A stretch of 37,422 nucleotides of DNA from a virus, in the IMG/VR virus record IMGVR_UViG_3300030085_002856, positions 268 through 37,689 of that record; one strand, 5' to 3'. The position numbers were made by a program, and so were the translations under genes. Positions within the stretch are counted from its first letter, which is position 1, and every line of letters starts with the position of its first letter. This document shows positions 11,853-30,056 of the stretch, piece after piece. The notes under the pieces are model-generated. The model did no database searches and had not been told where the DNA came from. It saw nothing but the letters and a program-made list of their open reading frames with translations.

Positions 11853-11860
11853 TATTTATG
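11853..11860 (-). promoter_or_regulatory. T4-like late promoter motif CATAAATA at the end of the giant gene
   Basis: The minus strand reads CATAAATA, with the TAA being the stop codon of the 6066-aa gene. The motif is about 20 bases before the ATG of the 406-aa gene. It matches NATAAATA and gives that gene its own late transcription start, which would be useful behind an 18-kb gene. Assigned by motif and position. Confidence 0.62.
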
Positions 11861-14800
11861 GGATTACTTCAGGGTCAATTACTTCTTCACCATACAGAGA
11901 AAGATCTGGTGCAGTCCAATCATCGGGAACAGAAGTTTCAACATCCACGCCTGGGTTTTGATATCCAGATCCAGGATTACTTAATGTTACCCCAGCAACT
12001 CCAACAAGTGCTTTTACTTGACCATCGAATCCAGAGATGGAATCAAGTCTTACGACAGGTCTAGATGTATATCCAGATCCACCAGATGTTACCTGAACAC
12101 TCTCAATATATCCGTTAGTTAAGACAGCAGTTGCTTGGGCATTCTGCCCAAATACAGATCCAAGATAATCAAATGTGATGAGTGAGTTAGAGGATTCAAT
12201 AACAGCAACTTCTCTATCAGTAACTTCACCTTCAATTTCAATGAAGTCTCCTACTTCGATTGGTGGTACGACCTCATCAGAGTCAACGTCTGCTTCAGAA
12301 CCAACAAAAGAGAATGCTACAAATGTAGATCCAACACGAGGGATTTCGGAGAAGATGATTCTAGAACCAACAATCTCAAAACCAACACCAGGTTCTTGAA
12401 GAACACCATTGACAGAAACAATGATATTATTCTCTGGGCGAATCACAGATGATTGTACACCATCTGTAAGTGTGAGAGAGTAGAAGACATCATTACGTCT
12501 TAAGTTGAAAGATTGACGCAATGAATCAAACTCGAAAGAAATGTCGTCAAGTTGTCTCAGTTTACCAATATAGAATCCAGTGAATGATGCTCCGATATCG
12601 GGTGCTTCAGTGAACTGAATCTTGTCTGAGAAAGCAGTGTATGCATTTGATGCACCAGGTGGTTGAAGGACACCATTAACAAAGACAAGCAAATGTCCTG
12701 CTGGATCTGGTAGATATTGGCTTCCATTGTCGATAGTAAGATCAAATGTTGTTTGAGTACCATCAAATCCACGGAAGAAACGCTTAACTCTAGCTTTAAG
12801 GGTTTCCTTAGTAAGAACCGCTGCACGATAAGTTCCTGGTCCTCTGATACCATCTCTGGTAGAGAATGTTCCAGCAATATCCGTGAGATAGAGTCTCTTA
12901 TTAAGACCAGAATCTCTAACATCTTGTACAAGTGCAGAAGCAGCACCAACAATAGTGTCTTTATTGGTAACCGTTGCAGATCCAACTAAAGTAGTGCCAG
13001 TTGCACCAAAGTCACCAACAGCATTATTGATAGAAATAGTTCCTTGTACCTGAACGATATAAACGTAGTTATTGTTTAAATCGACTTCAGTAATAATGCC
13101 ATATGTATTTGTAAATGCAGCACCACCAGACTGGAGATACAATCTATTACCAACAGTGAACTGATTGAGATTAGAATCTACATTAAGCGTCAATCTAATA
13201 TGACCAAGAGAAGCGATTTTAGTACCAACTTCAATATCAAGACCAGCATATTTGCTGACTTCTAAGTACTGTCTAGAAGACTCAGGATATACAACAGCAG
13301 TAGTTTCAAGAGATCCAGTAAGAGTCTCAGTATCGATAGTCAATGTACCGCCTGTGTTGTCAGTTACCGCTGCTTGATTTGTTGTATACGAAACAGGATC
13401 TGCAGACTCGGTGCTTGTGTATCCAAGGAAAGGAATATCCTCTTCAAAAGTACCGACAACATCAATCAGATGTAAGCGTTTTTCAATGGCACTAATCTGT
13501 GCTGTTGTTGTATTTTCAGCACCGACAATAGTGTCTAAGATTGCCCATGTTCCGCCAGTTACAGCAACATCAAGATATTTGTAGTTAGCATCTTCAAAGA
13601 ATCCATAAACAACACCAGTTACCGCAGCATCACCTTGTTTTTGAACAGTCTCATTCATTGTAAAGGGACCGTCAGTAATATTGCCATCAATCCTGAATCT
13701 TTGATAGGTTTTGGCAACTTGTGCTTCGTTTTTAGTGATAGATTGGATTTCTGCAAAGACATCTCTATCGCTAGAGTAGAAGAAATCTGATGCAATAAGT
13801 TCACCACTGATTCCAATAGGAATATTACGAGTTCCATAAAGTTTAGTGGGAACACTCAATGCATTGTTTTCATCTACGGTCGTATAATGTTCACTGGATT
13901 TGAGTTGTCCGTTGATGATATCAATGCTAGTTCTTACGAACGACATAATAGTGTCCGTATTATAGTTTGCCGCAGCAGTTGAACTATAGAACTTATAGAA
14001 AGAAGCAGCAGTAGATGGACTTACTAAGGTATTAGAAAGTGATCTTCTAATGTAATCAAGAAGAAGATCTAATGTAAACTTCTTGATATTATATTCAGAG
14101 TTTGCATAGAACTCTTGACCAGAAACCGCAGCATAAGTTCCCAAAGTACCCGTGTTAAGTGCTGCACCCCAGACGTAAATACCAGAGACATCATCACCAG
14201 TGAATGATGATAAATTATCATTATTTCTAATCCTAAGTCTTGTTCTTAAGGTACTAAATCCAAAGGAAATAGTAAATGTTGCGTAAACTCTATACCATCC
14301 ATTACCAAAAGGAATAGTATCCAATGTATAAGACTCTACACCACCCTGACTTTGGAAGACAGAACCATAGGAACCATCGGTCAGATCAATATTAACGAAG
14401 ATGGAGTTCGCATTTGGTTGCCCTTGATCCAACCAAACAATAAAGGCAACTCTAGAGTACTCACCAGCTTTGATAAACATCGAAGTAGTAAATGTTTGAG
14501 TACCAGTAGTCGAACCTTGGTCAAATCTAGATGTATCTGCATCAAACTTAACCGTATCAGCATCCATGGTTGTGTATTGAGTAAGAGCATAGTCTCTATA
14601 CGTTCCATTGTTCTGACCAGAACCAGAAGTAGCAACAAGTTTTTCTGCTGTTAATGTGTTATCTGGAGCAAGAGCAGCATTAGGAGTCCAAGTAGTACTT
14701 ACTGGGGTCCAGTTGACATTGAATGCTTCAGGATTAGTCCAAAGATTTGTAGGAGTGACAGCACCTTCAATCAGAGAAGAAATAGCAGTAGCACTCTCAA

Positions 14801-17800
14801 TACTCTTAATATTACTAATATCGTTATACCACTCATGAGCACTCGTGACTCCACCAGTTGCAATAGTTGCACTACCACCAGATGCAGAGGTAATAGTTGC
14901 ACCAGCAGCATATATGGTTCCACTTAGAGAACCAATAACCAATGTATCTTGAGAGAAATAAAGGACTGTGGATGTTGTTGATCCACCAGTTACAGTTTCA
15001 CCAACATTGAAAGTTCCACTGTAAGCACTAAGGGTTAAAGTATATGCAGTTTGCGTATCGGATGTATCCGTAGTAAGGAGATCATATTGGATATTGTCAA
15101 CAATATTTTCAACAAAATCATTATATTGCCAAGAGTTAGTTCCAAACTGACTATTTACATTAGAAGCGATCTCTGCTTTATAGTAGTTTTCATTATACAG
15201 GATGTTCTTAACAGCACTTCTTGCCTCAATATCACCTGGGAATAATGTATCAATACCAGTATCTACAAGTTCCTTCATTCTGCAAGAGACTGCATCAATA
15301 TCAGTTGGAGTCTCACTGTCTCTATATGCAGTATCATCAGTGTACAATGCAGCATATTGATCTCCTGTTACCGAAGATCCTGCATCGTAAAGAAGATTCT
15401 TGATTGCCTTCTCACTAAGAACTTTGATTTGCTCATGAGCGTAGTAGAAAGCATATAGTTGATCATCGATATCATCACTAATCTTCAGTTGAGCATCTAA
15501 GAAAGTCTCCATCTGAGTGATAACACTATTATTACCACCAGTCTGAAGATCGGAAATCATTGCAATAATGAAATCTTTGATATATGTCTCATATGTGCTA
15601 CGATCATATGTGATTGCAGAGAACGTTCCATTGTTAATGGTATATTGCAACTCTGTACCAAGTAATCCAAGAAGAGTAGAACGACCTGCGATCTCCTCTG
15701 CAATGTATTTTCTATTAAAGTATAATCTATCACCACCAATATTATAATCATCTCCAGTTGGAGCAATAACATCATTGAATGTGGTAATCAGAGTATCAAT
15801 AGCACTTTCGACGTTTGCACAACCACCTGGATCATTAGTAATACCCCAATCACCAGTAATAATATTATCAGTGTTATCATATGTCAGGTCACCATTGATC
15901 GCCTGCTTCATATAATAACCAATTCTTTCGTGTGCATAAACAGACTGCCAAACCTGAAGTCTGATGTGCAACAACTGATTATTACCATCTAAGTAGAACT
16001 TAGACGTAGTAATCGTATTGAGATTACCACCATTCTCAATATCCTTAGCCAACTGCCCAACAATAATAGTAAGGTCAGTCTTACAACGCTCGGTGCCATC
16101 GGTGCTACCACCAACGTTTCTTGGCATCTCATTTGCAAGATCTGGATATCTAGTAAGCATATCATGTGCTGCTTTGTCTACGATAACCGCAGTGTTAGCA
16201 CGAATCAGATTAGCAGCATCTCTAAATCTGTTGCGAGATGTTTCTCCAATGCGATGAGTATAAACAGAATCACCAGTTCCATCATGATATGTTCCTGTAA
16301 AGGGAACTTCGTAATAAGCATCAACAACACCAGAGAGGAACTCAGTTACTGGTTCTACTTTAGTAATCGTAGCAAGGTGATCACCATCAGCAGTATTTGA
16401 CGTGGTTCCAATCGCCTCAGAAATAGTATCCTCAACAATATCCGTTAAGTTTCCTACCGTAGATACAACGTCTGCACAATCCGATGTGGTATAAGGAATG
16501 ACCGTTACTGCATTGGTATCTGCACTTACAAATGTGTGTGCAAACTGTGCATTAGCAGGAGAAACACCAACATTTACAGTAAATGTATCAGTAGAAACTG
16601 CAGTAATATCCAAAACGCGATTGTACGCATGAGTATCACTAACGCGAGGGTGTGCGAGAATACAATCATTACCATCACTGGTGCAGGTAAACTTGAGTGA
16701 ACCAGGTGCAATAGAAATACTATTTGCAGTAGTCAATCCATGTGATGCAGAAGTAATAACAAGATTTCCATTTGCAGGATCATAAGATACAGTAGTTGGA
16801 GTTAAAGTAGTTACAGTTCCATAAGAAGAATCAGTGACAGTGGAATCAGTCCACTGCTTCAATCCATGACTACCTGCAATAGTAATGAGAACATTATTGA
16901 CAATCGAAGACATGTGACCTTGGATTGTCTGATAACCAGTTAACAAGTGATTGTCATCAGTAGTTGAATAACCAACAATACCACTTACTGTTGAACCAGT
17001 TCTATCTACAAGAGCGGCAGCCGTGTCCCACATGTGACTGTTACTTCCATTACGAATATCTTCAATCAGTTGATTAAGGATTGTAGTATATGTCGCACTA
17101 AAGTTTGTGGAAGAAGATCCACCTGCCTGAACTGCAGCATGTTCACCTTCTTCTGCAAGCAGTTGGATGTTTCTACGAATAGCTTCAGAAGCATCATAAT
17201 ATCTGTGAGTTTTGAATGCAAATCCTGTAGGAAGGTTAGCAGAGTTTGCTCTCCAAGTTTCCAAGATAGCATCATTGTGGAACTCTTCACCAGCAGTAAA
17301 CGATTCAGATCCAGACCAATCTTGTGTATAAGTCTGAGCGTCTGCACCATCAAAGTGAATCAATAGAACAGTATTGGCATCACCATGGAACATACCTGTG
17401 GGAGCGGTGAATGCTGCTGTATAACGAGCATTGGTAGAAACTCTAAGATCATCAATATGACCAGGGAATACTGCACTTCCATTAAGGTTTGCACCAATTT
17501 TAATAGGTCGTGTTGAACCATAATCAGTAGTATCTGTAAGATCAGAACCCTCCTGAGTACCATTAAGATACAACTTGGTTACACCACTTGCTCTAACTAC
17601 TGCAACGTGATACCAGGTATCAACAACGAGATTGGTGGTTCCAGTAATAGATCCAGCTCCGTTTGCCGATTGGAATGCCAGTGTAGATCCACTTAAATAT
17701 AAGTTTGCAGCAGTATCGCTACTAGTAGGTCTAAAATCTACAAGCATTTTTGTTCCACTAGCAACGTTCGCAGGGCGAATCCAAGTTTCAACGGTAAAGT

Positions 17801-20800
17801 CGCCAGTACCAAAACCAAACTCTGTAGAAGTTGCAATAGAAAGATAATCACCAGTACCATCAAGTAAGAGTGAAGTTGTACCAAACTTCTTCTGAGCGGT
17901 ATCTAACTGAGCATCACCATTGAAAGTGATTGTATGATAATCTTCACCAGTAGATTTACATCTACCGATTTTACCAAGATACACAGTTTTTCTCGCCTGA
18001 CTGTATCCAATAATTTCCGCTTTAGTATCAGTAGTTCTGATAATCTGACCCTGAGAGAAGAATCCACTACCAAGTGAGTCGGTAAAAGTTAACTTCTTAA
18101 CTTTGAAGTTTTCTCCAACAATAAACTCACCAGTATTGCTACCATAACGAATATTGTAGTTTCTAATATATTCATTATCGTCAAAATTACCCGTTTCATT
18201 ATCATAAACCAAGATGTTATTGCTAATCGACTCATTAGCAGGGAACTTCGCATCAAAAGCAGTCAGATTATCATCAAAATCGACAATACTTGTCTGAGAC
18301 TTAGAGATATCATCAAGAATAACATTAGGATAAGTAATAGATGTCAAACGGTTGAAGAGCAGACCAAAGAAGGAAGATCCAGAGGAAATATTGACCTGTT
18401 CAATAAACTCACTAGTTACAGGATCTTGATATGCACTTGTTTGTGTTACACGAGCAACAACTCCAGACTGAGCACCAATAATATAATCATTCAGTTGAAT
18501 GTTAAACAGACCTGGTGTTGACTGATAAGTACCTGTAGTCTTACTAAGTGTAAGTGTATTGGTAACTTCAATATCAGTAGAATACATTGGTGTATCTTCC
18601 TGATGTGAAGTAGCTGTTGTACCAAGTTGACCTCTAGTAATAGTGATTGTCGTGGACTCAGATCCATTTGATACACTGTCGATTCTAACAATCTCAGAAG
18701 CAAGTTGATAGTTATCACCTACTGTAAATGTTCCTGCAGGCAGAGGTGCATCGGTTGTAGACGTAGTAGAAACCATCTCAACGCTGGTTGATGCAGCACC
18801 GATTGTATAACGAAGTTCTGCAATAGGAGTTTCTTGACCAGTCTCAAGGTTGATTGTTTCTACAACTGCAGTGTCACCAGTAAGATTAGTGATTTGCTCA
18901 TTGAATGCAAATAAACCACTATTGGTTACACTTTCTACAGTCTGTAATGTACCATTAAATCCAGTAGCTGCAACTTGACATTGCTCACTAGTGATGAATG
19001 TTCCTTGAGTAATAAATCCACTAATCTCATTTCCAGCAACTGATGTTACTGTCAGACGTGCATTAGAAACAATACCAACAAGGGTATCACCAATGCTGGG
19101 GAAAATACCACTCGTAAATACAAACGAGAGAGTTACTGTACTAACTTGCTCAATACTAACATTGACATACTTAACACTTGCAGGTGGTTGAGGTGGTTGG
19201 GCGAATACAATAGAATCTCCCTGAACTTCAAACGCAGTGTCTGGAGTTTGTGCAACACCATTGAGAACAATCAGAAGCTGATTTGCATTTGCAATGACAT
19301 TTTCACCATTAACAGTAAGTGGGAACTGAGTTCTCTCACCATCGAAGAGATTTGAAACATCATCTAAGCGTTGAACAACAGAGGTCAAAATATTCTCAGA
19401 AGAAGTCAGTTTCTTCTGACGGAATAAAACTTCACTGTTATTAAACTCAGAATAAACAGGTTCTACTAGAGCAAAGTTTTGAATATTAGGTACTGTTGCA
19501 TCTCTAGCAAGTTCAACTGATTTGGTGAGTTCAAAGTCAATCTCTTTATTTGCAGTGAAACCATATTCATCAATATTAAGTTCACCAAATACCTTAAATG
19601 AAGCGGGGTGAACATTCTTAATCAGAATGTCTTTCCAGTCATCAATAGATACCGAAGACTTAACAGCATAAGAGAAATCTTGATAATAATAAGAATCTTG
19701 AATCTTTTGAATAATCTCAGATGGTTTACCAACATCATCAATAAACTGACCCGTGGTTTTAGTAATAGGACCGATCTCAAGAACACCTTTCGCGATCTTA
19801 AGATCACTGATAACACCCGAAGATTTAGAGATAACACCAGTAATACTTTGACCTTGCGTAAAATCGCCAGTGTAATCTACAACTTTCAAGATTCTAGGAC
19901 CAACTTGCCATCCCTCATTAGTAGAAACATAACCAGTTGCTGTTGCAGTATCTAAAGAATCACCTTGATAAACAAGTTCTCCTTCTAAGAAAGTTGATGT
20001 AATGACATTTGCCTCAGCTTCTGCACCAAAAGATTCAGTCAATACTTGCTGCCTTCCAGTACCAGCATTGGCAAATGCAATAGAATCGCCAAGTTCAGCG
20101 TTAGCTGAAGTAATAGCAAGTTTCAGTTGATCATCTTCAAGAGAGTTAGCAGTTCCAGCAATAGCATAATATGTGGTTGTGCCATTTAATCTACCAACAG
20201 CACCAGAAGCAAGTGGGAACTCGGTTCCTTCACCAGTATCAACAACATTTAGAGTAACTTCCGCACCATTTTGAATGCCGTGAGGGAAAGCAAACTGCAG
20301 CAACCCTAAATCAAGGTTTACAACATAGTTAAAGGAAGATTTAAGTTGAATAGTAGGTGCAGAAGAATATCCTGCACCAGGATCTTTGATGGTGATCTGA
20401 TCGATTCTTCCATTTTTAATCGTTGCTTCAGCAATAGCACCAGACCCACCACCACCAGTAACAACTACAGCAGGTGCTTGTGAATATCCAGAACCAGGAT
20501 TAGTAACAGTAATACTGTCAAGAATGCTTGTAGAGGTTAACTGTGCATTGAGTGGGAAAGTGATTTCAGGACGTAAAGTATAGTCATGTGGATAATCATA
20601 TCCGAAGTTATTGTTCTTCAGTTTTTTGATCTTACCAACGTTAGTTCCTTTAGCAAAGACAACTGCTCCAGTACCAAACGGAGGAATAACTACTTCAACC
20701 TCTGCACCAGATCCAGTGAGTCCAGGTCCAAGAATGCCATTAACTGCTTCAATATCAATGTTTGCAGTGGTATATCCCTTTCCAGGAGAAGTAATGGTAA

Positions 20801-23800
20801 CTGACTGGATTTGACCAGGAATGGTATCTCCTTCATCATTAGTACCATCTGCGACAACAATAGTAACTAAACCACCCTCACCATCACCACCAATAGGTAC
20901 ACTATTGTATGTACCAACAGCATATTCAGTTCCAGGTTCGTTGATCTGAACTCTTTCAATCTTTCTAGAAGATTGAATACCAGTTACAACTGGCAACTTA
21001 GCATAGAATCCACCAGGATTAATAAGTCTAATATCAGCAATACTACCAACTGCTTTTTTAGATGAAGTGCTATAGGTAGCACTAGTGATAGTTGCATCCC
21101 CTTCAGGTTCATTAATCAGAGGGAACTTGATAATATTTGCACCTGTTGTGATAGTCGCACCAGCAATTTCACTAACAGTGAATGTTCCAAGATAAGGTGA
21201 ATCAACAATATCCAGATAACTATTTGTATCGATTGGAGAATCATCACCTACTCTAGATGGATCGAAATAATAAGAAATATTTGTAACAACATTTCTATCA
21301 ACTTTCAACTTAACAGTTGGAGTGGGTTGACCTTCTCCAGTAACTCCAGGAGTTCCAATCCTTTCAATGGAGTTAAAGGAATATTCCAGTTTGTAGATAT
21401 TATCTTTCGAGAAAGAAAGATTAGATCCCAACATAGAAGAATGACTGAGGTCAAACAGATATTGATGACCATAGTACATTTTCAATACAGGAGATTTAGC
21501 AAAAATACTAACACTAGATGCATTTGTTGCTGGAGAAGTTTGAGCTACAGCATCTAACTTATAAACAAATTCCCTATTACTTACAACTCTGTCAACAATA
21601 AAAGAACCATCATATTCATCATAGACAACGCCACCAACAGTTTCAGATGGATTACCATCAACCAAAATATTATCACCAACAGACAGATAATGCCTAGATC
21701 CAGTAATAATATAAACTTCATCGGTATTAGCAACAGCAGTTACCTGCAAAACCTTATCAAGAGTAGAAATCAGAGTAATCTTAGTAACACCCGTAAGATT
21801 TGTGATTTGTGCGGTAGTTTTTGCTGAGTTAAAAGAAATATCACTAGATGTAATACTAACAACAGATCCTGGAATGAATGAAGAAGATCCAGAAATCTCT
21901 TCAATTTTTACTGAATACGAATCAACATCAAATGGCTTAAACTTAGCAAAACTATCTAAATCTCCAGATCCTGCAGATTCTGTTCTATTTAAGTTATAGT
22001 CATTTAAATCAATATCAAAGGTTCCTGGAGTTGTGTTAACAACATTACTAAAATTATACTCAGTGATTACATTTACATCAGTAGGAACTTTTCCGACGAT
22101 TCCGTAAGTATCTTGCGAATCAAACTGTTCTGTAGAAAGAAGACCTGTATTAAGATCATCTGACCATGCATTATTGTTTACAGCAAGATAGATTTTGTTA
22201 TTAGCATTATCTACACGAAGAACATATCCACTGTTGATAAATGATCCAGAGTCATTTCTCAATACGAGTTTAGATCCAATCGTAACATTAAATGCTTGAT
22301 TGATAGTCAGTTCTTGTACATTATCATTCTTAACTGTATTCGTTACCTTCATATAGTAACGATTTTTGACTATTGCTGTCAACTTAAGTTTTTGAGATCC
22401 AGGAGAAGGAACCGTAGCAGTTCTAGAACTCCAAGTATCTGAAGTATAAGACAGTGCTTCGGTGTCTTGCTGCATAGTGGTTGTAGCATCCTCAAAATCT
22501 AATCCCTGGAATCCAGCACTTCCTAATGCAAAACCAGTATTAGATACAGTTAATGTAACTCCAGTAACTGCAGTGACCGATGTTCTAGCAAACCCAACAT
22601 TGGTATTTGTTTGAACTCCTTGATCACCCAATCGATCGGCATCAGAATCTTTATCAGTTTTAAGTCCCCAACCAACATAATCAATATAATCATAACGATT
22701 CATGTTTGTCGTAAACCATGCATCATCTGTCCAATCATAAGTAAGACCAAATGCATCTGCAGCAGGGATTACGGTAACATCACTAGGTACAGTGGGAGTA
22801 ACCGCTCTATTTCTAAGTCTCAGATTGTCAACATAATATTGACCCTGATAAGTTGATGCAAACTGAGTTGCAGTGCCATTCTTACCAGGAATATTACCAA
22901 TATAAAGATCTTTACCATTTAGTTGAGTAGATGCAATAGTTCCAGTTACAATCTGAATACCATTGATATAAGCAGTAAATACATTACCTTCTTTCTTCAA
23001 TCCAACAAACTGCCAAGTATCATCAGCAAACATCGATGTTTGAGTGGATTGGAGAGCACCACTAGCACTATTAAGAGCAGTAGTATTATCAGTAACAACT
23101 AACTCAAGTTTTCCACTAGAAATATCATAATACATCCAAAGACCACCAGTAGCATCGGTTGCATCACCAATAGCAACCAATGTTTGTTGAGTTTGACTAT
23201 GAGTTTGAGAGTTAGTTGCATCTTTATAGAGCATAAACTCTAAAGTCCAATCATCACTAAGTTTAGTTCCAAGACTTGCTGAGGTAAACTGAATAGCAGC
23301 ATTTTCCCAGTTTGCGGGAGTAGCAATATCTTTACCGAACAGTTTTGCAACACCATCACCAACAAGAGTGAGGGAATCAGTCGCATTATTACCAATCAGT
23401 GTTGGTGTATAATGACCAGTTTTATCTGTAGCAGCGTCAGTTTCATCAAACTCAAAGATAAACTCATTTCTGTTCCAAGAAGTTTGACCAAATACATAAA
23501 CATCACCAGAGTTATCTACTGTAATAGCATTTGCAGTAATACCTTCGATGTTATTAGCATTAAACTCATTATTAGTGTGAGTTTTAAGGACACCATCATA
23601 TGCAATCTTAACAGTATCCACTGTCTTATATCCAGTAGTACTATCAGTTCTGGTATATGCAAGATTCAACTGACCAAAGATATCAATAGTGCTTCTACCA
23701 GCAAGTTCAATCGAGTTTCCAGTTGGAGCAAGATATCTGTAGTTCCAAAGTAAATCTCCATCAGTATCTACTTTACCAACCCAGAAACTATCTCTGACAG

Positions 23801-26800
23801 TGTTGTCAGATTTCAGTGCCAAAGTAGCACTAATATAGAACTCGTCAAACTCATCAACAACTAAAGAAGTATCTTTGAAAGAGTATGCAGTATTATTGAT
23901 TTCTTTAATCCATTCAACAGTAATGGCAGAAGTTCCAACCAATACCTTACCAAAAGAAACCTTTGTATCCAAAGATCCATTGCTAGGAGATGTCTCCATA
24001 ACAAAGTAAACCGCATCATTTAATACAACTAAATCAGTGATTTTTTCAGACCCAGATGCTGATGCAAGTTTTCTCTTTGCTGCAATAGTTCCAGTGGAAT
24101 CAATAGAAGCAATAAAAGCATCTTGAGGATTTGCTGAGTTTGTATTAGTAAAACCAGCAATAATGTACCTAGTATCAGAGTACCTCTTAATGTCAGTAAT
24201 ATTATCAGATCTGGTAGCACCAGAAATACCAGAATAACCTTTCTGGAAAGAAAGTGTTGCACTCAATCCATCTAATGCTTGGGTGTATTTTACTAAAATG
24301 ATATCAGGATTATATGCAGCAAGAATCGAAGAGTTTGGTTTATTTTGACCAACTACCCAAATATCATTACCACTAATATCAAGTTTTACAAACTCAGTAT
24401 AAGTTTCTCCAGCTTCACTTTCAAGAGTTTTTTCCCACTCTTTAACACCAAGTTCAGAAAACTTAGAAACAAAAGCAACTTCATTGCCATTTGCCTCTAA
24501 AGTTTTACCACAGAAGAAAATCTCTTTATCGTCATTAACAACTACGTCATTTACTTTTACATATTCTTCATGCTCAATAAGAGAGACATAGTAGTTTGCT
24601 TTTTTGAAGATCTGTGGGTGGCTTAAGATGACTCTTGGATTCTTGGTATACCCAGATCCAGAGTTAACAATATCAACCGACTCAATGGATCCAACAGAGC
24701 TAACTGTTGCTCTAAGTTCTGCAGATTCTCCATCACCATCAATAGTGATAGTTGGAGGAATCTCAGCATCATATCCACCACCTGTTTGATCAATAACAAT
24801 CTCTTCAATACCTTTTAGTTGTCGAACAACAAACTGTTTGTTTGTTGAATCCATAACAGGAGTATAATCAACATAAACAGTGTCACCAACAACAATATTG
24901 TGAGGAACACTTGTAGTCAGAACTCCAACAAAGTCATCTTGAACTGCTTCAAATGTATATGCTGAAATAGTTTCTCCCTTGATTTTAGATATTCTTGCAG
25001 AAACACCTATTCCATCAGTATTTTCATTATCAAAGATAAGAATATCATCTACCTGATAACTTTTACCCGAATCTTCGATAATAAATCCCGTTACAGAAGC
25101 ATCTTCAAACTTTGTAGTAGTTTCAACTTCAATATCAACTTTTGAATCGAATCTTACCGATGGGAAATAATCAAAGAGTTGTAATGGCGACTCTTCAAAG
25201 ATTTGATCAGGATCATCTGTTTCATCCTGACTAATGACACCATCCCTATTTTCATCTTCAACTTCAAATAATAAAATATCACCAGATTCTGTTGTTAGAG
25301 CATTTGTAGATACATTTGGTGCCCTGTCAACATCAATATCAACATTTTCATATGGATCGCGATATCTAACAACACCCGTAGGAATATTTTGCTGGATAGC
25401 ATCTTTGTTTAGATTCCAAGAATCAACAATAGAGTTAAAACTTGGTCCTAAAACATATGGGAATACTGGATTTCCATTCTCAGTAGCATCAACGGTAATG
25501 AAATAACAATATTTTCCTTCTGGGAAATCAGGTGTCTTACAGAAACGACCATTATATTGATCAAGATCACCAAGTCCGAAAGAATATTCATAGTCTTCAA
25601 CAAACTTACCAGCAACTTCGTCCGTTAACAGTGGACCCTCAGTTCTTACTGGATATGGATTTGTAACTTCATCATATACAAGATTACTCTTCAATCTATA
25701 AGAAGTATTCAAACGAGCAATACTAGAAGATTGATCTGTAGGATCACTATATCCATAAGGACCATAGATGGGATTACCATCAAATGCCCATCCAATGATA
25801 GGAGAGTGTTCCAGTTGGGTTTCTTGCTCTAAAATAGATCCTGTAATACTCTCAAAAAGATTGTCTCCAAGAATATATCTAAGTCTTTGTGGATTTGAAA
25901 TGTGAGCATATTCACCACCATATTGATTATTAAATCCAGCAAATACAGATCCCTTTGCTTCGTCAACAGTTGCAGTTTCCTGAAGATTGTATGTCCACTC
26001 AAAAACTCTAGGACTAAAAGTTGCTCCAGATCCAACAGATGTCAGATTAATAAGGGTTGTTCCTTGAATATAGTTAATGCCCCTGTTAATGATTTCGATA
26101 CCAGTAACTTTTCCTGCATTTTCACCATCAATATCAATAGTAGCACGAGCAACAGCACCAAAACCATCGCCTTGAATAGAAACTTCAGGTGCCGTAGTAT
26201 ATCCCTGTCCACCTGAAATAATCGCAATAGAGATGATTCTTCCATTACTTACGATTGCTTGAGCAACAGCACCTGTTCCAGAACTTAATGTAACATCTGG
26301 TTTAGATGTATAAGAAGAACCGCCAGAGGTAACTGCAATGGACTTGATAGGTCCTCTAACAGAAGCAGTAGCTGTTGCACCAGTTCCACCACCACCAACA
26401 ATGGTGATTGAGGGTTGTGACGTATATCCAGTACCACCAGTATTCATTAAAATACTAGAAACAACGCCCCTTGTTACGATTGCAGTTGCTGCAGCACCAG
26501 ATCCGCCGCCACCAACGATGGAAACAAGTGGAGAAGACGTATATCCAGATCCACCATTATCTACAACAATCTCGGTAATGGAACCATTAACAGTTACGTC
26601 TGCAGCTGCACCAGATCCACCGCCACCAGAGAATGTGATTGTTGGTGGTGAAGATGCATCATAATCAGATCCAGATGTTAGAATATCAACGGCAGTAACA
26701 GGTCCAAAAGTTTTTGTAATATCAGATTTGTAAGACCAAACTGAAGTTCCATTAATCCAAGTACCAATAGGACCAGGTTTAATGGCATCCTTAATCGAAA

Positions 26801-29800
26801 TGGTAGAAGGAGATAATGGGAATCTATTTAACTTACGCTGGTTTCCAGGTAAAAGTGCTGATCCTGGGAAAGGACCAATCTTATAGTTTGGAATACCAGT
26901 AGATGCAACATAAACATGATCATTATTGAAAAACGAGTTCTGAATATTTGTAGTGTAAGGTCCAATGGAGTTAAGAACAGCACTATTATCAGACTTACCT
27001 TTATTAAGGTCAACAGATACTAAAATGTTACCTTGAGGTGTAACTTCTGCTGGTTGAGGAAGTTGATATTGAAAAACTGTAGTACTATCTCTAGAAGTTA
27101 CTAAGAAAGATCCATTGTAAATGATTGGATTTGCACCATAAACAGTTACCTGATCTCCAACAAGAAGACCATGATCATTTGAACAAGTAACAGTTGCATA
27201 TCTGTTATCTACACCACCAAATGTAATACTATCTACTTCTAAAAGTTTTTTAACATTATACAACCAAGTTTTAAGTGCTGGATCCTCGGAGGTTCCACCA
27301 AGTTTGGATACTGACAGTTTATCTCCAGAAAGATAATAAGATCCAGTGTCTGTCAGAGTGGTTTCTTGGGCATCTACAATACCAACTACATTCAAGACTA
27401 CTTCTTGAGGTGTATTTCTATTAATATGTACAATAAGATTAGATGTTACTTCGGTGGCAGAATCCCAATCTTCTACAACGTTGTTAACAGAACGAGTACA
27501 TTCAATGAACTGGTTGAGAGACTTTTCTTTATATTGAATAAGTTCAGTGTCACCAATAATAAACTCACCATTTCTTTCAGGCCAACCAATAGTTGAGTCT
27601 ACTGTAATAATACTATCTGTGGTATTGAGAGGTTCTGCAAGTTTTGTTTTATAAGGAACTACAAAAGTACCTTGAATAGTTTCCTCAGAAAGAACTAACT
27701 CAAAAAGTTCTACATCAGAAGTTTTAATAGAGATATAGTTCTCAACTAAGGCACTAGCTTCCCCAATGTTTGGGTCAGCAATATTAGCTTCTTGTACCAA
27801 TAATCCATCTTTAATATTAGTAGGATCTCCACTAACTAAGGTGGCACGAAGAATAGTATCGATAGACCAAGTTGCTGCCGATGGTTTTGTAATCTGATCT
27901 TTAGGATAAGATACTGTTACTTGCTCACCATAAAGAAGTTTGAACAAATATGCAACACTAAAAGAAGTTCCTTTTGTAGAATAAAAATCCTTTACAGATT
28001 TAATCGCATTTCTTACATCAATCTTTTTATAGTCAAGTTCAGGAACATCAGGAAGAAACTGCTCTGTATACTTATCAAGTAATCTCTTTACAAATAATGC
28101 ATCTAAACACTTTACTTCAGTTCCCTCGGTTGCAGAAGCAGCAGTAGTATTATTGGAAAATACTGCATTGCCAGATTCAGTGTAATCTACGATTCCACTT
28201 GCAGCTCTAGCACAACCTTCAAGTTGTGCTTTATTATAACCTTTACCACTCTTTGATACAGTGAAACCAGTAATCTCATTCAATCCAATCTCAACAGAAG
28301 CCCGAGCTTGTGGGGGATCCTGAATAATAACTGTAGGGGGATTGGCAGAAGAATAACCGCCACCAAAGTTAGTGATGTTAATATCTGTGATTTTTCCATT
28401 AAAAACAGAAGCAGTTGCAGTTGCACCACTACCAGGATCTTCACTATTATCTACAATGTAAACTGATGGAATATCGTCATATCCAGTACCACCACTCAAA
28501 AGTTCTACAGAAACAACTCTACCATCACCATCAACTAATGTCTCTAAAACTTGAGCACCTGTAGGATCAACAATAGCAACTCTAGGAACATTAACATATC
28601 CCTGACCAGCATTTACAATATTGATAGAAGTAACTACACCATTTGTTAAAACTGCTTCTAAATTTGGTACGATAGCATTGTCTCCTGTTGGAGCATCAAT
28701 ATACACAGTGGGTGCAGTCGTATATCCAGATCCACCAGAAACGACCTCAATAGTTCCACTCAATCTACCATCAGTAATAGTAGCAGGTCCTAGTTTTGCA
28801 CCACCAGGTTGCTTGAAAGAAACTCTAGGAACAAACGTATACCCACTTCCAGAGTTTACAACTTCAATACTAGATACAGTCCCATTAGTAACAACTGCCT
28901 TTAGTTCAGCTTGCTTTGAATCTACATTTGTAGGTGCTTCAATGATTACTGCGGGAGGATTTGTATCACTATACCCTTTACCACCATCCAAAAGAACTGA
29001 GTTCTTAATGCCATTTACAAGAGCTGTAGCAGCTGCTCCCTGACCATCTACACTATTGATAGAAACTTTTGGAGGATACTTATAGTCATATTGAGATCCA
29101 GTTTCATTAATACTAATGGAAGAAAGTTGTCCAGAATCATTAATGCGTGCATATCCCACTGCACCAGAACCAAAATCAGGAATAGGTGCCTCAATGGAAT
29201 ATAAAGAAAGGAGTCTTCCATTTAAAGGTGCTTCATTAAAGATGAAAATATCACCATCAATAAAAAAGTCTACCTTAGGAACAAGAAGTTCATTATCATA
29301 AACCGCTAAAATGTATTCTTCTGCAATAGGTTCATAAGATACTGCACTTCTAGTGATCTTAAACTCAGTTTGACCTTCTCCAAAAGATCCAGAAATATCA
29401 TCAATAGCAATAATAGCATTTTCAACAAAACCACTTAAAAAAGTGATAGAAGTACTAGTATTATCATCACCAGCAATTCTTGCTCTTGGTGCTGTCGTAA
29501 ATACAATGTCTGTTCCATCAACAGTGTAATCTCTTCCAGGAACTAAAACTTCATTGTAAACAGTTACAATAAGATGCTGTGCAGATGGAGCACTGATAGG
29601 GGAAGATTGAGATGTAAGAGGGAAGCGAACAGTTGTTCCATCAAACAAATCAATGATCTGAGCAAGACCAGTCCACTTTAACTTTACCTGATCATAAGAG
29701 ATACCAGGGCTAAGAGAAATATTTGGAGAAGCAGTAGTCTTCTCATAGTAGATTACTTCGTCACCAATAAGGACTGATCCATTAGCATCAAGAAAACTAT

Positions 29801-30056
29801 CGACACTTTCAACGACAATGGTATCACTCTTATCTGTAATATCTTCTACAACTTTAGTTGCACCATCCAGGATATTAATATCGAGTTTATCAATATCAAG
29901 ATATTGTAAAAAGTTATTGACGATATTTTGACCTAAACCAGTTTTTTCTTGAGACCTATAATAGTACTCAATAAACTTATTGAACAGTGGATATTCTGTC
30001 TTTAAAAACTCAGGAGACTGAGAAGAAATAGACTGGGAGACCTTATTAATATTCAT
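11856..30056 (-). CDS. Giant 6066-aa mosaic virion structural protein in the gp7 position
   Basis: A single uninterrupted frame, starting 6 bp after the gp6 stop and lying between gp6 and gp8, where T4 has gp7 (about 1030 aa). The N-terminus (SPEFLKTEYPLFNKFIEYYY) resembles large cyanophage structural proteins (often called VrlC-like). Modules by residue: two LxVxxNxVxxPG units (130-290); eight GSGY repeats (306-613); a helical stretch (about 630-690); GSGY repeats (1116-1339); a YHYH-like domain (about 1390-1535); two GSGY repeats (1749-1817); beta-propeller-like repeats (1817-2206); LamG-like domain (2200-2423); GSGY (3031-3241); NGV module (3560-3640); LamG-like domain (4038-4236); helical repeats (4278-5000); jelly-roll/CBM-like (5105-5316); two NGV modules (5758-5920); terminal GSGY. 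Roughly 0.65 MDa. It probably forms wedge and peripheral host-contact parts. gp7 equivalence rests on position and is uncertain; structural identity is firm. Confidence 0.88.
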   Translation of the reverse strand: MNINKVSQSISSQSPEFLKTEYPLFNKFIEYYYRSQEKTGLGQNIVNNFLQYLDIDKLDINILDGATKVVEDITDKSDTIVVESVDSFLDANGSVLIGDEVIYYEKTTASPNISLSPGISYDQVKLKWTGLAQIIDLFDGTTVRFPLTSQSSPISAPSAQHLIVTVYNEVLVPGRDYTVDGTDIVFTTAPRARIAGDDNTSTSITFLSGFVENAIIAIDDISGSFGEGQTEFKITRSAVSYEPIAEEYILAVYDNELLVPKVDFFIDGDIFIFNEAPLNGRLLSLYSIEAPIPDFGSGAVGYARINDSGQLSSISINETGSQYDYKYPPKVSINSVDGQGAAATALVNGIKNSVLLDGGKGYSDTNPPAVIIEAPTNVDSKQAELKAVVTNGTVSSIEVVNSGSGYTFVPRVSFKQPGGAKLGPATITDGRLSGTIEVVSGGSGYTTAPTVYIDAPTGDNAIVPNLEAVLTNGVVTSINIVNAGQGYVNVPRVAIVDPTGAQVLETLVDGDGRVVSVELLSGGTGYDDIPSVYIVDNSEDPGSGATATASVFNGKITDINITNFGGGYSSANPPTVIIQDPPQARASVEIGLNEITGFTVSKSGKGYNKAQLEGCARAASGIVDYTESGNAVFSNNTTAASATEGTEVKCLDALFVKRLLDKYTEQFLPDVPELDYKKIDVRNAIKSVKDFYSTKGTSFSVAYLFKLLYGEQVTVSYPKDQITKPSAATWSIDTILRATLVSGDPTNIKDGLLVQEANIADPNIGEASALVENYISIKTSDVELFELVLSEETIQGTFVVPYKTKLAEPLNTTDSIITVDSTIGWPERNGEFIIGDTELIQYKEKSLNQFIECTRSVNNVVEDWDSATEVTSNLIVHINRNTPQEVVLNVVGIVDAQETTLTDTGSYYLSGDKLSVSKLGGTSEDPALKTWLYNVKKLLEVDSITFGGVDNRYATVTCSNDHGLLVGDQVTVYGANPIIYNGSFLVTSRDSTTVFQYQLPQPAEVTPQGNILVSVDLNKGKSDNSAVLNSIGPYTTNIQNSFFNNDHVYVASTGIPNYKIGPFPGSALLPGNQRKLNRFPLSPSTISIKDAIKPGPIGTWINGTSVWSYKSDITKTFGPVTAVDILTSGSDYDASSPPTITFSGGGGSGAAADVTVNGSITEIVVDNGGSGYTSSPLVSIVGGGGSGAAATAIVTRGVVSSILMNTGGTGYTSQPSITIVGGGGTGATATASVRGPIKSIAVTSGGSSYTSKPDVTLSSGTGAVAQAIVSNGRIISIAIISGGQGYTTAPEVSIQGDGFGAVARATIDIDGENAGKVTGIEIINRGINYIQGTTLINLTSVGSGATFSPRVFEWTYNLQETATVDEAKGSVFAGFNNQYGGEYAHISNPQRLRYILGDNLFESITGSILEQETQLEHSPIIGWAFDGNPIYGPYGYSDPTDQSSSIARLNTSYRLKSNLVYDEVTNPYPVRTEGPLLTDEVAGKFVEDYEYSFGLGDLDQYNGRFCKTPDFPEGKYCYFITVDATENGNPVFPYVLGPSFNSIVDSWNLNKDAIQQNIPTGVVRYRDPYENVDIDVDRAPNVSTNALTTESGDILLFEVEDENRDGVISQDETDDPDQIFEESPLQLFDYFPSVRFDSKVDIEVETTTKFEDASVTGFIIEDSGKSYQVDDILIFDNENTDGIGVSARISKIKGETISAYTFEAVQDDFVGVLTTSVPHNIVVGDTVYVDYTPVMDSTNKQFVVRQLKGIEEIVIDQTGGGYDAEIPPTITIDGDGESAELRATVSSVGSIESVDIVNSGSGYTKNPRVILSHPQIFKKANYYVSLIEHEEYVKVNDVVVNDDKEIFFCGKTLEANGNEVAFVSKFSELGVKEWEKTLESEAGETYTEFVKLDISGNDIWVVGQNKPNSSILAAYNPDIILVKYTQALDGLSATLSFQKGYSGISGATRSDNITDIKRYSDTRYIIAGFTNTNSANPQDAFIASIDSTGTIAAKRKLASASGSEKITDLVVLNDAVYFVMETSPSNGSLDTKVSFGKVLVGTSAITVEWIKEINNTAYSFKDTSLVVDEFDEFYISATLALKSDNTVRDSFWVGKVDTDGDLLWNYRYLAPTGNSIELAGRSTIDIFGQLNLAYTRTDSTTGYKTVDTVKIAYDGVLKTHTNNEFNANNIEGITANAITVDNSGDVYVFGQTSWNRNEFIFEFDETDAATDKTGHYTPTLIGNNATDSLTLVGDGVAKLFGKDIATPANWENAAIQFTSASLGTKLSDDWTLEFMLYKDATNSQTHSQTQQTLVAIGDATDATGGLWMYYDISSGKLELVVTDNTTALNSASGALQSTQTSMFADDTWQFVGLKKEGNVFTAYINGIQIVTGTIASTQLNGKDLYIGNIPGKNGTATQFASTYQGQYYVDNLRLRNRAVTPTVPSDVTVIPAADAFGLTYDWTDDAWFTTNMNRYDYIDYVGWGLKTDKDSDADRLGDQGVQTNTNVGFARTSVTAVTGVTLTVSNTGFALGSAGFQGLDFEDATTTMQQDTEALSYTSDTWSSRTATVPSPGSQKLKLTAIVKNRYYMKVTNTVKNDNVQELTINQAFNVTIGSKLVLRNDSGSFINSGYVLRVDNANNKIYLAVNNNAWSDDLNTGLLSTEQFDSQDTYGIVGKVPTDVNVITEYNFSNVVNTTPGTFDIDLNDYNLNRTESAGSGDLDSFAKFKPFDVDSYSVKIEEISGSSSFIPGSVVSITSSDISFNSAKTTAQITNLTGVTKITLISTLDKVLQVTAVANTDEVYIITGSRHYLSVGDNILVDGNPSETVGGVVYDEYDGSFIVDRVVSNREFVYKLDAVAQTSPATNASSVSIFAKSPVLKMYYGHQYLFDLSHSSMLGSNLSFSKDNIYKLEYSFNSIERIGTPGVTGEGQPTPTVKLKVDRNVVTNISYYFDPSRVGDDSPIDTNSYLDIVDSPYLGTFTVSEIAGATITTGANIIKFPLINEPEGDATITSATYSTSSKKAVGSIADIRLINPGGFYAKLPVVTGIQSSRKIERVQINEPGTEYAVGTYNSVPIGGDGEGGLVTIVVADGTNDEGDTIPGQIQSVTITSPGKGYTTANIDIEAVNGILGPGLTGSGAEVEVVIPPFGTGAVVFAKGTNVGKIKKLKNNNFGYDYPHDYTLRPEITFPLNAQLTSTSILDSITVTNPGSGYSQAPAVVVTGGGGSGAIAEATIKNGRIDQITIKDPGAGYSSAPTIQLKSSFNYVVNLDLGLLQFAFPHGIQNGAEVTLNVVDTGEGTEFPLASGAVGRLNGTTTYYAIAGTANSLEDDQLKLAITSANAELGDSIAFANAGTGRQQVLTESFGAEAEANVITSTFLEGELVYQGDSLDTATATGYVSTNEGWQVGPRILKVVDYTGDFTQGQSITGVISKSSGVISDLKIAKGVLEIGPITKTTGQFIDDVGKPSEIIQKIQDSYYYQDFSYAVKSSVSIDDWKDILIKNVHPASFKVFGELNIDEYGFTANKEIDFELTKSVELARDATVPNIQNFALVEPVYSEFNNSEVLFRQKKLTSSENILTSVVQRLDDVSNLFDGERTQFPLTVNGENVIANANQLLIVLNGVAQTPDTAFEVQGDSIVFAQPPQPPASVKYVNVSIEQVSTVTLSFVFTSGIFPSIGDTLVGIVSNARLTVTSVAGNEISGFITQGTFITSEQCQVAATGFNGTLQTVESVTNSGLFAFNEQITNLTGDTAVVETINLETGQETPIAELRYTIGAASTSVEMVSTTSTTDAPLPAGTFTVGDNYQLASEIVRIDSVSNGSESTTITITRGQLGTTATSHQEDTPMYSTDIEVTNTLTLSKTTGTYQSTPGLFNIQLNDYIIGAQSGVVARVTQTSAYQDPVTSEFIEQVNISSGSSFFGLLFNRLTSITYPNVILDDISKSQTSIVDFDDNLTAFDAKFPANESISNNILVYDNETGNFDDNEYIRNYNIRYGSNTGEFIVGENFKVKKLTFTDSLGSGFFSQGQIIRTTDTKAEIIGYSQARKTVYLGKIGRCKSTGEDYHTITFNGDAQLDTAQKKFGTTSLLLDGTGDYLSIATSTEFGFGTGDFTVETWIRPANVASGTKMLVDFRPTSSDTAANLYLSGSTLAFQSANGAGSITGTTNLVVDTWYHVAVVRASGVTKLYLNGTQEGSDLTDTTDYGSTRPIKIGANLNGSAVFPGHIDDLRVSTNARYTAAFTAPTGMFHGDANTVLLIHFDGADAQTYTQDWSGSESFTAGEEFHNDAILETWRANSANLPTGFAFKTHRYYDASEAIRRNIQLLAEEGEHAAVQAGGSSSTNFSATYTTILNQLIEDIRNGSNSHMWDTAAALVDRTGSTVSGIVGYSTTDDNHLLTGYQTIQGHMSSIVNNVLITIAGSHGLKQWTDSTVTDSSYGTVTTLTPTTVSYDPANGNLVITSASHGLTTANSISIAPGSLKFTCTSDGNDCILAHPRVSDTHAYNRVLDITAVSTDTFTVNVGVSPANAQFAHTFVSADTNAVTVIPYTTSDCADVVSTVGNLTDIVEDTISEAIGTTSNTADGDHLATITKVEPVTEFLSGVVDAYYEVPFTGTYHDGTGDSVYTHRIGETSRNRFRDAANLIRANTAVIVDKAAHDMLTRYPDLANEMPRNVGGSTDGTERCKTDLTIIVGQLAKDIENGGNLNTITTSKFYLDGNNQLLHIRLQVWQSVYAHERIGYYMKQAINGDLTYDNTDNIITGDWGITNDPGGCANVESAIDTLITTFNDVIAPTGDDYNIGGDRLYFNRKYIAEEIAGRSTLLGLLGTELQYTINNGTFSAITYDRSTYETYIKDFIIAMISDLQTGGNNSVITQMETFLDAQLKISDDIDDQLYAFYYAHEQIKVLSEKAIKNLLYDAGSSVTGDQYAALYTDDTAYRDSETPTDIDAVSCRMKELVDTGIDTLFPGDIEARSAVKNILYNENYYKAEIASNVNSQFGTNSWQYNDFVENIVDNIQYDLLTTDTSDTQTAYTLTLSAYSGTFNVGETVTGGSTTSTVLYFSQDTLVIGSLSGTIYAAGATITSASGGSATIATGGVTSAHEWYNDISNIKSIESATAISSLIEGAVTPTNLWTNPEAFNVNWTPVSTTWTPNAALAPDNTLTAEKLVATSGSGQNNGTYRDYALTQYTTMDADTVKFDADTSRFDQGSTTGTQTFTTSMFIKAGEYSRVAFIVWLDQGQPNANSIFVNIDLTDGSYGSVFQSQGGVESYTLDTIPFGNGWYRVYATFTISFGFSTLRTRLRIRNNDNLSSFTGDDVSGIYVWGAALNTGTLGTYAAVSGQEFYANSEYNIKKFTLDLLLDYIRRSLSNTLVSPSTAASFYKFYSSTAAANYNTDTIMSFVRTSIDIINGQLKSSEHYTTVDENNALSVPTKLYGTRNIPIGISGELIASDFFYSSDRDVFAEIQSITKNEAQVAKTYQRFRIDGNITDGPFTMNETVQKQGDAAVTGVVYGFFEDANYKYLDVAVTGGTWAILDTIVGAENTTTAQISAIEKRLHLIDVVGTFEEDIPFLGYTSTESADPVSYTTNQAAVTDNTGGTLTIDTETLTGSLETTAVVYPESSRQYLEVSKYAGLDIEVGTKIASLGHIRLTLNVDSNLNQFTVGNRLYLQSGGAAFTNTYGIITEVDLNNNYVYIVQVQGTISINNAVGDFGATGTTLVGSATVTNKDTIVGAASALVQDVRDSGLNKRLYLTDIAGTFSTRDGIRGPGTYRAAVLTKETLKARVKRFFRGFDGTQTTFDLTIDNGSQYLPDPAGHLLVFVNGVLQPPGASNAYTAFSDKIQFTEAPDIGASFTGFYIGKLRQLDDISFEFDSLRQSFNLRRNDVFYSLTLTDGVQSSVIRPENNIIVSVNGVLQEPGVGFEIVGSRIIFSEIPRVGSTFVAFSFVGSEADVDSDEVVPPIEVGDFIEIEGEVTDREVAVIESSNSLITFDYLGSVFGQNAQATAVLTNGYIESVQVTSGGSGYTSRPVVRLDSISGFDGQVKALVGVAGVTLSNPGSGYQNPGVDVETSVPDDWTAPDLSLYGEEVIDPEVIP
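11950..12120 (-). repeat. C-terminal GSGY repeat pair of the giant protein
   Basis: The protein reads VTSGGSGYTSRPVVRL and then LSNPGSGYQNPG, two copies of the GSGY unit. The segment includes one of three identical 18-bp stretches (12067-12084 on the plus strand) that recur at 26539 and 28720. Confidence 0.75.
12290..12785 (-). repeat. Tandem 'NGV' modules 4 and 5 of the giant protein
   Basis: Two adjacent units of about 75-85 residues: GFDGTQTTFDL...LLVFVNGVLQPPG...IQFTEAP and FDSLRQSFNL...IIVSVNGVLQEPG...IIFSEIP. The same pattern appears near residues 130-290 and 3560-3640. In other phages such modules occur in tail-fibre and baseplate proteins; function unknown. Confidence 0.7.
14110..14745 (-). 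other. Jelly-roll / carbohydrate-binding-like domain in the giant protein
   Basis: Residues about 5105-5316 start with LWTNPEAFNVNWTPVSTTW, then APDNTLTAEKLV, FTTSMFIKAGEYSRVAF and NGWYRVYATF, ending in GIYVWGAALNTG. This order is typical of the carbohydrate-binding-like jelly-roll domains of phage tail proteins. Sugar binding is inferred, not shown. Confidence 0.6.
15060..17225 (-). repeat. Helical repeat modules in the giant protein
   Basis: Residues about 4278-5000 contain three to four related alpha-helical units in an otherwise beta-rich protein. Unit A has YYDASEAIRRNIQLLAEEG and LIEDIRNGSNS; unit B has FRDAANLIRANTAVIVDKAA and LAKDIENGGN; unit C has YFNRKYIAEEIAG and MISDLQTGGNNS; unit D has SAVKNILYNENYYKAEIASN. 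The recurring pattern is N-x-x-x-I-A-x-E followed by an (I/L)xD(I/L)xxGxN turn. Confidence 0.65.
17350..17945 (-). other. LamG/concanavalin-like domain 2 in the giant protein
   Basis: Residues about 4038-4236 show the LamG order: TTSLLLDGTGDYLSI, FGTGDFTVETWIRP, DTWYHVAVVRASGVTKLYLN, PIKIGANLNG and FPGHIDDLRVS. Such domains bind glycans or proteins in many families. Recognition is strong by motif; the ligand is unknown. Confidence 0.8.
20335..20965 (-). repeat. GSGY repeat cluster 4 of the giant protein
   Basis: Residues about 3031-3241 include GTYNSVPIGGDGEGGLVTIV, SPGKGYTTANIDI, VEVVIPPFGTG, NPGSGYSQAPAVVVTGGGGS and DPGAGYSSAPTIQL. The first half parallels the insertion in gp8 almost segment by segment. 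Confidence 0.8.
22790..23460 (-). other. LamG/concanavalin-like domain 1 in the giant protein
   Basis: Residues about 2200-2423 read DDWTLEFMLYKDATNS, GLWMYYDISSGKLELVV, DDTWQFVGLKKEGNVFTAYI, GKDLYIGNIPG and YYVDNLRLRNRAV. This is the LamG strand order with the characteristic final 'hhDxLRL' segment. It follows the propeller-like region directly. Confidence 0.78.
23440..24607 (-). repeat. Beta-propeller-like repeats in the giant protein
   Basis: Residues about 1817-2206 contain some six units pairing 'hhFhxGxT' strands with 'AFVSKFSELGVKEWEKTL'-type strands: IILVKYTQALDG, AFIASIDSTGTIAAKRKLA, SFGKVLVGTSAITVEWIKEI, FWVGKVDTDGDLLWNYRYLA and VKIAYDGVLKTH. This resembles SBBP/bulb-type propellers. 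Blade number is estimated by eye. Confidence 0.6.
24607..24812 (-). repeat. GSGY repeat cluster 3 of the giant protein
   Basis: Residues about 1749-1817 contain two units, DQTGGGYDAEIPPTITIDGD and VNSGSGYTKNPRVILS, immediately before the propeller-like region. Confidence 0.75.
26040..26709 (-). repeat. GSGY repeat cluster 2 of the giant protein
   Basis: Residues about 1116-1339 contain five to six units of roughly 40 residues, for example GGSGYTSSPLVSIVGGGGSG, GGTGYTSQPSITIVGGGGTG and GGQGYTTAPEVSIQGDGFGA, separated by AxATAxVxxGxIxSIxVxxG. It is the most regular cluster; the plus strand shows recurrent CCACCACC and ATATCCAG words here. Confidence 0.88.
28215..29140 (-). repeat. GSGY repeat cluster 1 of the giant protein
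   Basis: Residues about 306-613 contain eight units with about 42-residue spacing: GSQYDYKYPPKVSI, GKGYSDTNPPAVII, GSGYTFVPRVSF, GSGYTTAPTVYI, GQGYVNVPRVAI, GTGYDDIPSVYI, GGGYSSANPPTVII and GKGYNKAQL. A tandem beta-repeat rod or solenoid is inferred. Confidence 0.88.
29190..29665 (-). repeat. 'NGV' modules 1 and 2 of the giant protein
   Basis: Residues about 130-290: FDGTTVRFPL...LIVTVYNEVLVPGRDYTV...IVFTTAP and FGEGQTEFKI...ILAVYDNELLVPKVDF...FIFNEAP. They are diverged copies of the module that ends the giant protein. Confidence 0.62.

Follow-up and report, generated by a model that had tools for sequence, protein, structure and literature searches.

In bacteriophage T4 the baseplate wedge protein gp7 is a monomer present in six copies (PMC3004832). 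In Vibrio phage XM1 the tail spikes sit on an inserted loop and a C-terminal tail of a small gp7 homologue (PMC10457771), and loops of the A-1(L) gp7 homologue anchor spikes or fibers (PMC10966104). The position directly after gp6 is common to gp7 and its orthologues in T4, phiM7, P-HM2, P-SSM2 and others, and between gp6 and gp8 the orthologues reach 896 residues in Melnitz, 1006 in phiM7, 1937 in S-CREM2, 3048 in S-PM2, 4454 in P-HM2, 5195 in P-SSM2 and 7124 in P-SSM7. Given this span, a giant gene at this position is ordinary for cyanophages. Both the size and the family of the gene described here are already known, giant genes at this position being annotated as structural in many cyanophages; what is added is that the gp7 assignment of the PHROG 701 branch is strengthened and given an anatomy.

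Several orthologues have been detected in virus particles. The S-SM1 orthologue, SSM1_102 (6180 aa), is labelled T4-GC 969; T4-GC969 is listed among the virion proteins identified by experiment, and purified S-SM1 virions yielded several of its peptides (PMC3037559). S-SZBM1_208 (6619 aa, 724 kDa), encoded beside gp6, gave 71 peptides and 13.5% coverage by mass spectrometry, with an emPAI of 0.41 as against 0.23 for gp6 (PMC9146016), and 91 unique peptides were reported for ORF122 of S-CREM2 (PMC10665884). A preliminary description of the present DNA, made from its letters, had proposed that the giant gene encodes a virion protein; this is supported by the S-SM1 and S-SZBM1 data on orthologues (PMC3037559; PMC9146016). 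That description had named absence of the product from particles as a way to disprove the proposal; with mass spectrometry of orthologues published, this check has effectively been made on relatives.

The giant gene and its neighbours

The window, by which we mean the whole stretch of DNA analysed, comprises 37,422 nucleotides (positions 268 to 37,689 of IMG/VR record IMGVR_UViG_3300030085_002856) and is part of a virus record of 39,164 bases, a metagenomic virus contig. The baseplate genes that concern us are the following:

30063..32111, minus strand: gp6, baseplate wedge (phrog_219, PF21379)
11856..30056, minus strand: giant gene, 6066 aa, very probably an expanded gp7-type baseplate wedge protein; PHROG 701 family
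10612..11832, minus strand: gp9/gp10-like tail fiber connector (phrog_677, PF07880)
6446..10606, minus strand: phrog_708 baseplate gene, annotated gp7 in S-CAM22, with no detectable gp7 similarity
4875..6407, minus strand: gp8 (PF09215, phrog_438)

In the direction of transcription the order is phrog_719 gene, PAAR gene, gp25, gp6, giant gene, gp9/10-like gene, phrog_708 gene, gp8 and the gene in the VrlC position. The giant gene, which starts 6 nt past the gp6 stop, thus follows gp25 and gp6 in the order gp25-gp6-gp7; T4 likewise has gp7 immediately behind gp6. The earlier placement of the gene between gp6 and gp8 was accurate on the gp6 side, which it adjoins, but two genes (gp9/10-like and phrog_708) separate it from gp8. 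Between phrog_719 and gp25 (32530-33281) the gene content is exchangeable: this window and S-RIM8 have a PAAR gene there, and S-CAM22 has a hypothetical gene together with a 2OG-Fe(II) oxygenase.

The giant gene is a single ATG-initiated frame with no internal stop; its product has a computed mass of 651 kDa, in agreement with the previous estimate of about 0.65 MDa per chain, and a pI of 4.4. The 6136-position PHROG 701 profile matches over the full length, scoring 5423 bits for residues 1-3000 and 4616 bits for the remainder, and hundreds of cyanophage records contain relatives. A search with residues 1-1500 matched 482 phage records, and in 288 of these the match spans at least 80%.

Relationship to gp7

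Four parts of the giant protein bear on its relationship to gp7:

29859..30056, minus strand: N-terminal helix-turn-helix arm, first half of the gp7 helical core, aa 1-66 (hhalign, compact profile from T4 gp7 residue 647)
28137..29858, minus strand: beta-rich insertion splitting the helical core, aa 67-640, with NGV-type modules and seven GSGY repeats
27567..28136, minus strand: second half of the gp7 core, aa 641-830, motif DFYSTKGTSFSVAYLFKLLYGE (hhalign, PDB hmmsearch)
19557..19880, minus strand: C-terminal gp7 segment, aa 3393-3500, motif YYYQDFSYAVKSSVSIDDWKDILIKNVHPASFKVFGEL (hhalign against T4 gp7 864-902)

When a profile of approximately residues 590-960, built from 17 orthologues, was compared with four T4-type gp7 proteins, hhalign returned a probability of 93.6% (E 2e-7). 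The match widened to T4 gp7 647-833 (95.8%, E 6.5e-9) with a profile in phiM7 coordinates, into which the giant members were entered without the insertion at about residues 67-645; this insertion (aa 67-640 here) has no counterpart in phiM7 or T4. The C-terminal segment matched T4 gp7 864-902 (77.8%, E 1.9e-5), and the gap between the two gp7 segments is about 105 residues in T4 and about 2,700 in the giant protein. In the same type of comparison no control exceeded 1%, neither reversed gp7 nor any of nine further T4 proteins of the baseplate or tail. Searched with hmmsearch against 177,635 PDB sequences, the core profiles retrieved gp7 only (E 5.7e-5 and 1.1e-4; 1.5e-4 and 1.6e-4), and the C-terminal profile placed gp7 first and second (E 0.016 and 0.14). 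These two colinear matches with their clean controls support the equivalence to gp7 that had previously been inferred. A fold search with a model of residues 1-945 ranked the gp7-length chains 9f4a_A0 and 5iv5_BJ first and second, with TM-scores of only 0.06-0.07, and for that reason it adds little to the case. The core helices are of low confidence in a model that lacks their partners; residues 6-39 are helices predicted with a pLDDT of 50-60. Our search for a baseplate structure from a marine cyanomyovirus found none.

We therefore regard the giant gene as, with high probability, the cyanophage form of T4 gp7, with its core split in three, insertions and a tail that carry phycobiliprotein-like and other modules, and a single chain per wedge that would be anchored there and project outward. 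The giant protein might instead be an additional baseplate or fiber component, with the true gp7 encoded by the phrog_708 gene (6446-10606), as the annotation of the S-CAM22 product as baseplate wedge initiator gp7 and the PHROG listing of phrog_708 as a baseplate wedge subunit would have it. This is very improbable: the phrog_708 product was rejected as gp7 by profile comparison, its family scoring a probability of 0.1% against T4 gp7 where the giant family scores 93-96%, and P-HM2, P-SSM2, S-PM2 and S-CAM1 have no phrog_708 gene there, the orthologue of the giant gene standing alone between gp6 and gp8 (save for one 175-aa gene in S-PM2). The phrog_708 product has a YHYH domain of its own. 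In Aeromonas phage 65 gp7 is encoded as two genes, 7a and 7b (L021:3737-7264), and is another gp7 chain that tolerates interruption.

Modules of the insertions and tail

Outside the gp7 segments the following domains and motifs were identified:

25482..25997, minus strand: YHYH domain, aa 1354-1525 (Pfam PF14240, E 4.4e-32)
25221..25256, minus strand: canonical EF-hand-like loop DENRDGVISQDE, aa 1601-1612 (motif only)
17424..17861, minus strand: LamG/concanavalin-type lectin domain, aa 4066-4211 (Pfam PF13385, E 8.7e-24)
16698..17207, minus strand: phycobiliprotein-like copy 1, aa 4284-4453, Cys-x-x-Asp lost
15693..16232, minus strand: phycobiliprotein-like copy 2, aa 4609-4788 (PF00502 E 7e-4, sub-threshold; PDB and profile-profile tests)
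16074..16085, minus strand: Cys4658-Lys-Thr-Asp4661 in copy 2, aligned with the phycobiliprotein bilin-site Cys-x-x-Asp
15171..15587, minus strand: phycobiliprotein-like copy 3, aa 4824-4962, Cys-x-x-Asp lost
14142..14573, minus strand: jelly-roll, head-spike-fiber-like domain, aa 5162-5305 (NCBIfam NF048003, 57.4 bits, cut-off 36)

The G-x-G-Y motif of the GSGY repeats has 17 matches in the giant protein, and the NGV modules are recognised by a motif and by recurring similarity. Most of the module types listed in the preliminary description were recovered, namely the GSGY repeats, YHYH, one LamG (PF13385), the jelly-roll (NF048003), the helical repeats (in a model) and NGV, but the first LamG-like region and the propeller-like region had no Pfam match at E 0.01 and nothing significant in NCBIfam. 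BLAST of the giant protein against itself gave no usable repeats, and a search of the window for tandem repeats and tRNAs gave nothing relevant.

The helical repeats as relatives of phycobiliproteins

The helical repeats are indeed helical in the predicted model, but their likeness to phycobiliproteins had been missed. An AlphaFold2 model of residues 4235-5000, made from 12 sequences (pLDDT 68), was searched against 350,542 PDB chains, and among the matches listed all 50 were phycobiliproteins or derivatives, with a probability of 1.00, target-normalised TM-scores of 0.53-0.67 and E-values of only 0.01-0.07. One of these is a bacterial fluorescent protein, which we interpret as an engineered derivative of a phycobiliprotein. 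As the model is of moderate quality, the sequence was tested independently. A search of the record with PF00502 matched the giant frame (E 1.3e-4), and PF00502 was the best Pfam match for three of ten copies (E 4e-4 to 2e-3). These matches score 20-20.8 bits (20.0 in this window), just below the curated Pfam cut-off of 22.2 bits, and for this reason the domains are called phycobiliprotein-like and not members of PF00502. When a profile built from 32 copies was run against the PDB, every one of the 60 matches listed was a phycobiliprotein or a derivative (best E 3.3e-5). Against a reference set of 62 phycobiliproteins from 32 cyanobacterial loci, profile-profile comparison gave 96.2% (E 2e-9), and still 94.8% with the divergent copies alone; a reversed and 20 column-shuffled controls all gave 0.7% or less. 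The bilin-site Cys-x-x-Asp is retained in 34 of 37 copies, though in this window in copy 2 only, one of three. In the alignment the phage pair falls on the Cys-x-x-Asp of phycobiliproteins, whose residues are the bilin-attaching cysteine and the bilin-contacting aspartate (Cys84/Asp87).

On this sequence and model evidence the helical repeats are identified as relatives of the cyanobacterial light-harvesting phycobiliproteins. The resemblance could in principle reflect convergence on a common helical pattern, since the similarity is strongest over, and limited to, about 60 residues that are 14-19% identical, and the model is of moderate confidence. Against this, two independent blind PDB searches listed phycobiliproteins or their derivatives and not globins or other helical folds, the profile-profile comparison gives E 2e-9 with the 20 shuffled controls at no more than 0.7%, and the bilin-site Cys and Asp coincide, so that convergence is very improbable. 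In a limited search of the open literature no report of a phycobiliprotein relationship of virion proteins was found, and the modules are here revealed in virion proteins of marine picocyanobacterial phages.

Besides this record, the domain was detected in 12 of the 19 phage genomes sampled, each of the 12 a cyanophage; it was not found in T4, ZZ1, phiM7, RHph_N34, Melnitz, S-CREM2 or P-SSM2. Among 50,697 phage records 343 match it, by name 270 Synechococcus, 56 Cyanophage, 16 Prochlorococcus and one Marine. The module is thus essentially confined to cyanophages. In S-PM2 it sits in S-PM2d088 and S-PM2d218 and not in the gp7 orthologue, from which it follows that it moves among giant tail proteins. 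Descent from a host antenna protein, with subsequent duplication and shuffling among the giant tail proteins, is the most likely origin.

Possible roles of the phycobiliprotein-like domains

The domains may bind bilin, may act as spacers or adhesins after bilin loss, or may contact the host antenna. A non-pigment role is at present more likely, and it is rather probable that the domains are true phycobiliprotein homologues in which pigment binding has been lost, serving as helical spacers or adhesin modules with the Cys-x-x-Asp kept for structure. The structural virion context and the two copies in this window that have lost the motif point in this direction, as does P-SSM2, which has a bilin reductase and no detectable copy of the domain. 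So do the domain-bearing proteins S-PM2d088 and S-PM2d218, since in chemostat evolution of S-PM2d these giants and the gp7 orthologue S-PM2d081 gained nonsynonymous mutations, those of S-PM2d088 and S-PM2d218 belonging to the set that the authors link to adsorption (PMC9910659). Less easily accommodated is the retention of the cysteine in nearly all copies, although cysteine accounts for only 15 of the 6066 residues of the giant protein.

A more tentative proposal, which we consider possible but unlikely, is that giant baseplate and tail proteins of cyanophage virions bear bilin-binding domains that would act as acceptors for phage bilin enzymes and CpeT-type lyases. How bilin genes help phages of Prochlorococcus, a host without standard phycobilisomes, is regarded as unclear (PMC2984593). 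The benefit of phage-encoded bilin enzymes and CpeT-type lyases has been unclear, especially in Prochlorococcus phages, and because a virion protein conserves the bilin-site cysteine, one answer can be tested directly. All eight CpeT-positive genomes carry the domain, an association that proves nothing because only two of the sampled cyanophages are without it. Bilin reductases exceed the cut-off in four of the 19 genomes, among them P-SSM2, in which no phycobiliprotein-like copy is detectable at E 0.001. The cpeT gene of S-PM2 is located some 1.5 kb upstream of the gene for S-PM2d218 (L399:1909-15224; S-PM2 154408-167723), and S-CAM1 has a CpeT match similarly near a domain-bearing frame; as the phages may be related, this proximity is a lead only.

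Constraint, variation and the reality of the frame

The preliminary description had judged an uninterrupted frame of about 18.2 kb and 6066 residues too long to be chance, and it was found again at the same coordinates. The chance of 6066 stop-free codons is approximately 10^-179 at the base composition here, and comparison with S-CAM22 indicates purifying selection over the full length (dN/dS ~0.18; dN 0.20, dS 1.12). That the frame is an assembly artefact fusing several genes, a concern raised by its source in a metagenomic contig, is refuted and carries practically no probability, because several isolate genomes carry colinear orthologues over nearly its whole length and orthologues of 6180-7124 aa lie at the same position in S-SM1, S-CAM22, S-RIM8, S-TIM4, S-SZBM1 and P-SSM7.

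Constraint is uneven. Residues 600-1650, 3000-3600 and 5700-6000 show high identity to orthologues; identity is low at 4000-5700, the zone in which insertions of 100-550 residues cluster. Against S-CAM22, pN/pS across the gene ranges from 0.13 to 0.60, rising from 0.13-0.18 in the conserved zones to 0.58-0.60 in the variable zone; the most constrained stretch is residues 3393-3500 (0.13) and the fastest-changing is residues 5101-5400 (0.60), which houses the jelly-roll. The variable zone contains the LamG domain, the helical phycobiliprotein-like region and the jelly-roll, and this lectin-bearing zone is likely to be the host-contact part. The S-PM2d chemostat mutations are consistent with host contact. 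The text of a paper on S-RIM8 evolution contained no gene-level information (PMC6722890).

Proposed architecture

Of the added residues, about 570 separate the two halves of the gp7 core, about 2,600 separate this core from the C-terminal segment, and a further 2,560 or so follow that segment. Sequence and predicted structure place YHYH, LamG, GSGY, jelly-roll and tandem phycobiliprotein-like domains in these insertions and in the tail. The gp7 core would anchor the giant chain in the wedge by packing with the gp6 dimer. There would be one chain per wedge and six per virion, for which the six-copy state of gp7 in T4 is the sole basis, and this would amount to about 3.9 MDa of giant protein in each particle. 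The inserted and terminal modules would project outward, at the places where simpler phages dock separate fibers on their gp7 homologue. Since loop and tail hold the spikes in XM1, this suggests that the receptor-binding modules of the giant protein have been fused where other phages dock theirs. The orientation of the modules and the receptor of the chain are inferred, and a host-sensing apparatus is plausible.

Comparison with known systems

If the assignment holds, one of the largest cyanophage genes is identified as gp7, and the wedge scaffold can be seen to have grown from about 900 to more than 7,000 residues by insertion with its core intact. T4 gp7 (1032 aa; PDB 5IV5, 5HX2) shares with the giant protein a helical core followed by a C-terminal YY...W...HP segment. 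The giant protein is about six times as long, and whereas large N-terminal domains precede the core in T4 gp7, the extra mass here lies inside and after the core; none of the lectin or phycobiliprotein-like modules is present in T4 gp7. Sinorhizobium phage phiM7 gp92 and Methylophilales phage Melnitz gp161 are compact and have both conserved gp7 segments, but lack most of the inserted modules, and neither genome has a phycobiliprotein-like copy anywhere. The giant orthologues SSM1_102, S-SZBM1_208 and PSSM7_090 of P-SSM7 resemble the present protein in position and size but differ from it at residues 4000-5700 in the number and type of modules. By its published description, XM1 gp17 (242 aa) is likewise a core split by an inserted loop and followed by a C-terminal tail, with the difference that its spikes are separate proteins whereas the modules of the giant protein are fused into the chain (PMC10457771). 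The PF00502 phycobiliproteins (phycocyanin, allophycocyanin and phycoerythrin) share with the phage domains the helical fold, as modelled, the conserved N-terminal helices and the Cys-x-x-Asp; unlike them, the phage domains stand in tandem inside a virion protein and have a shorter loop before the Cys.
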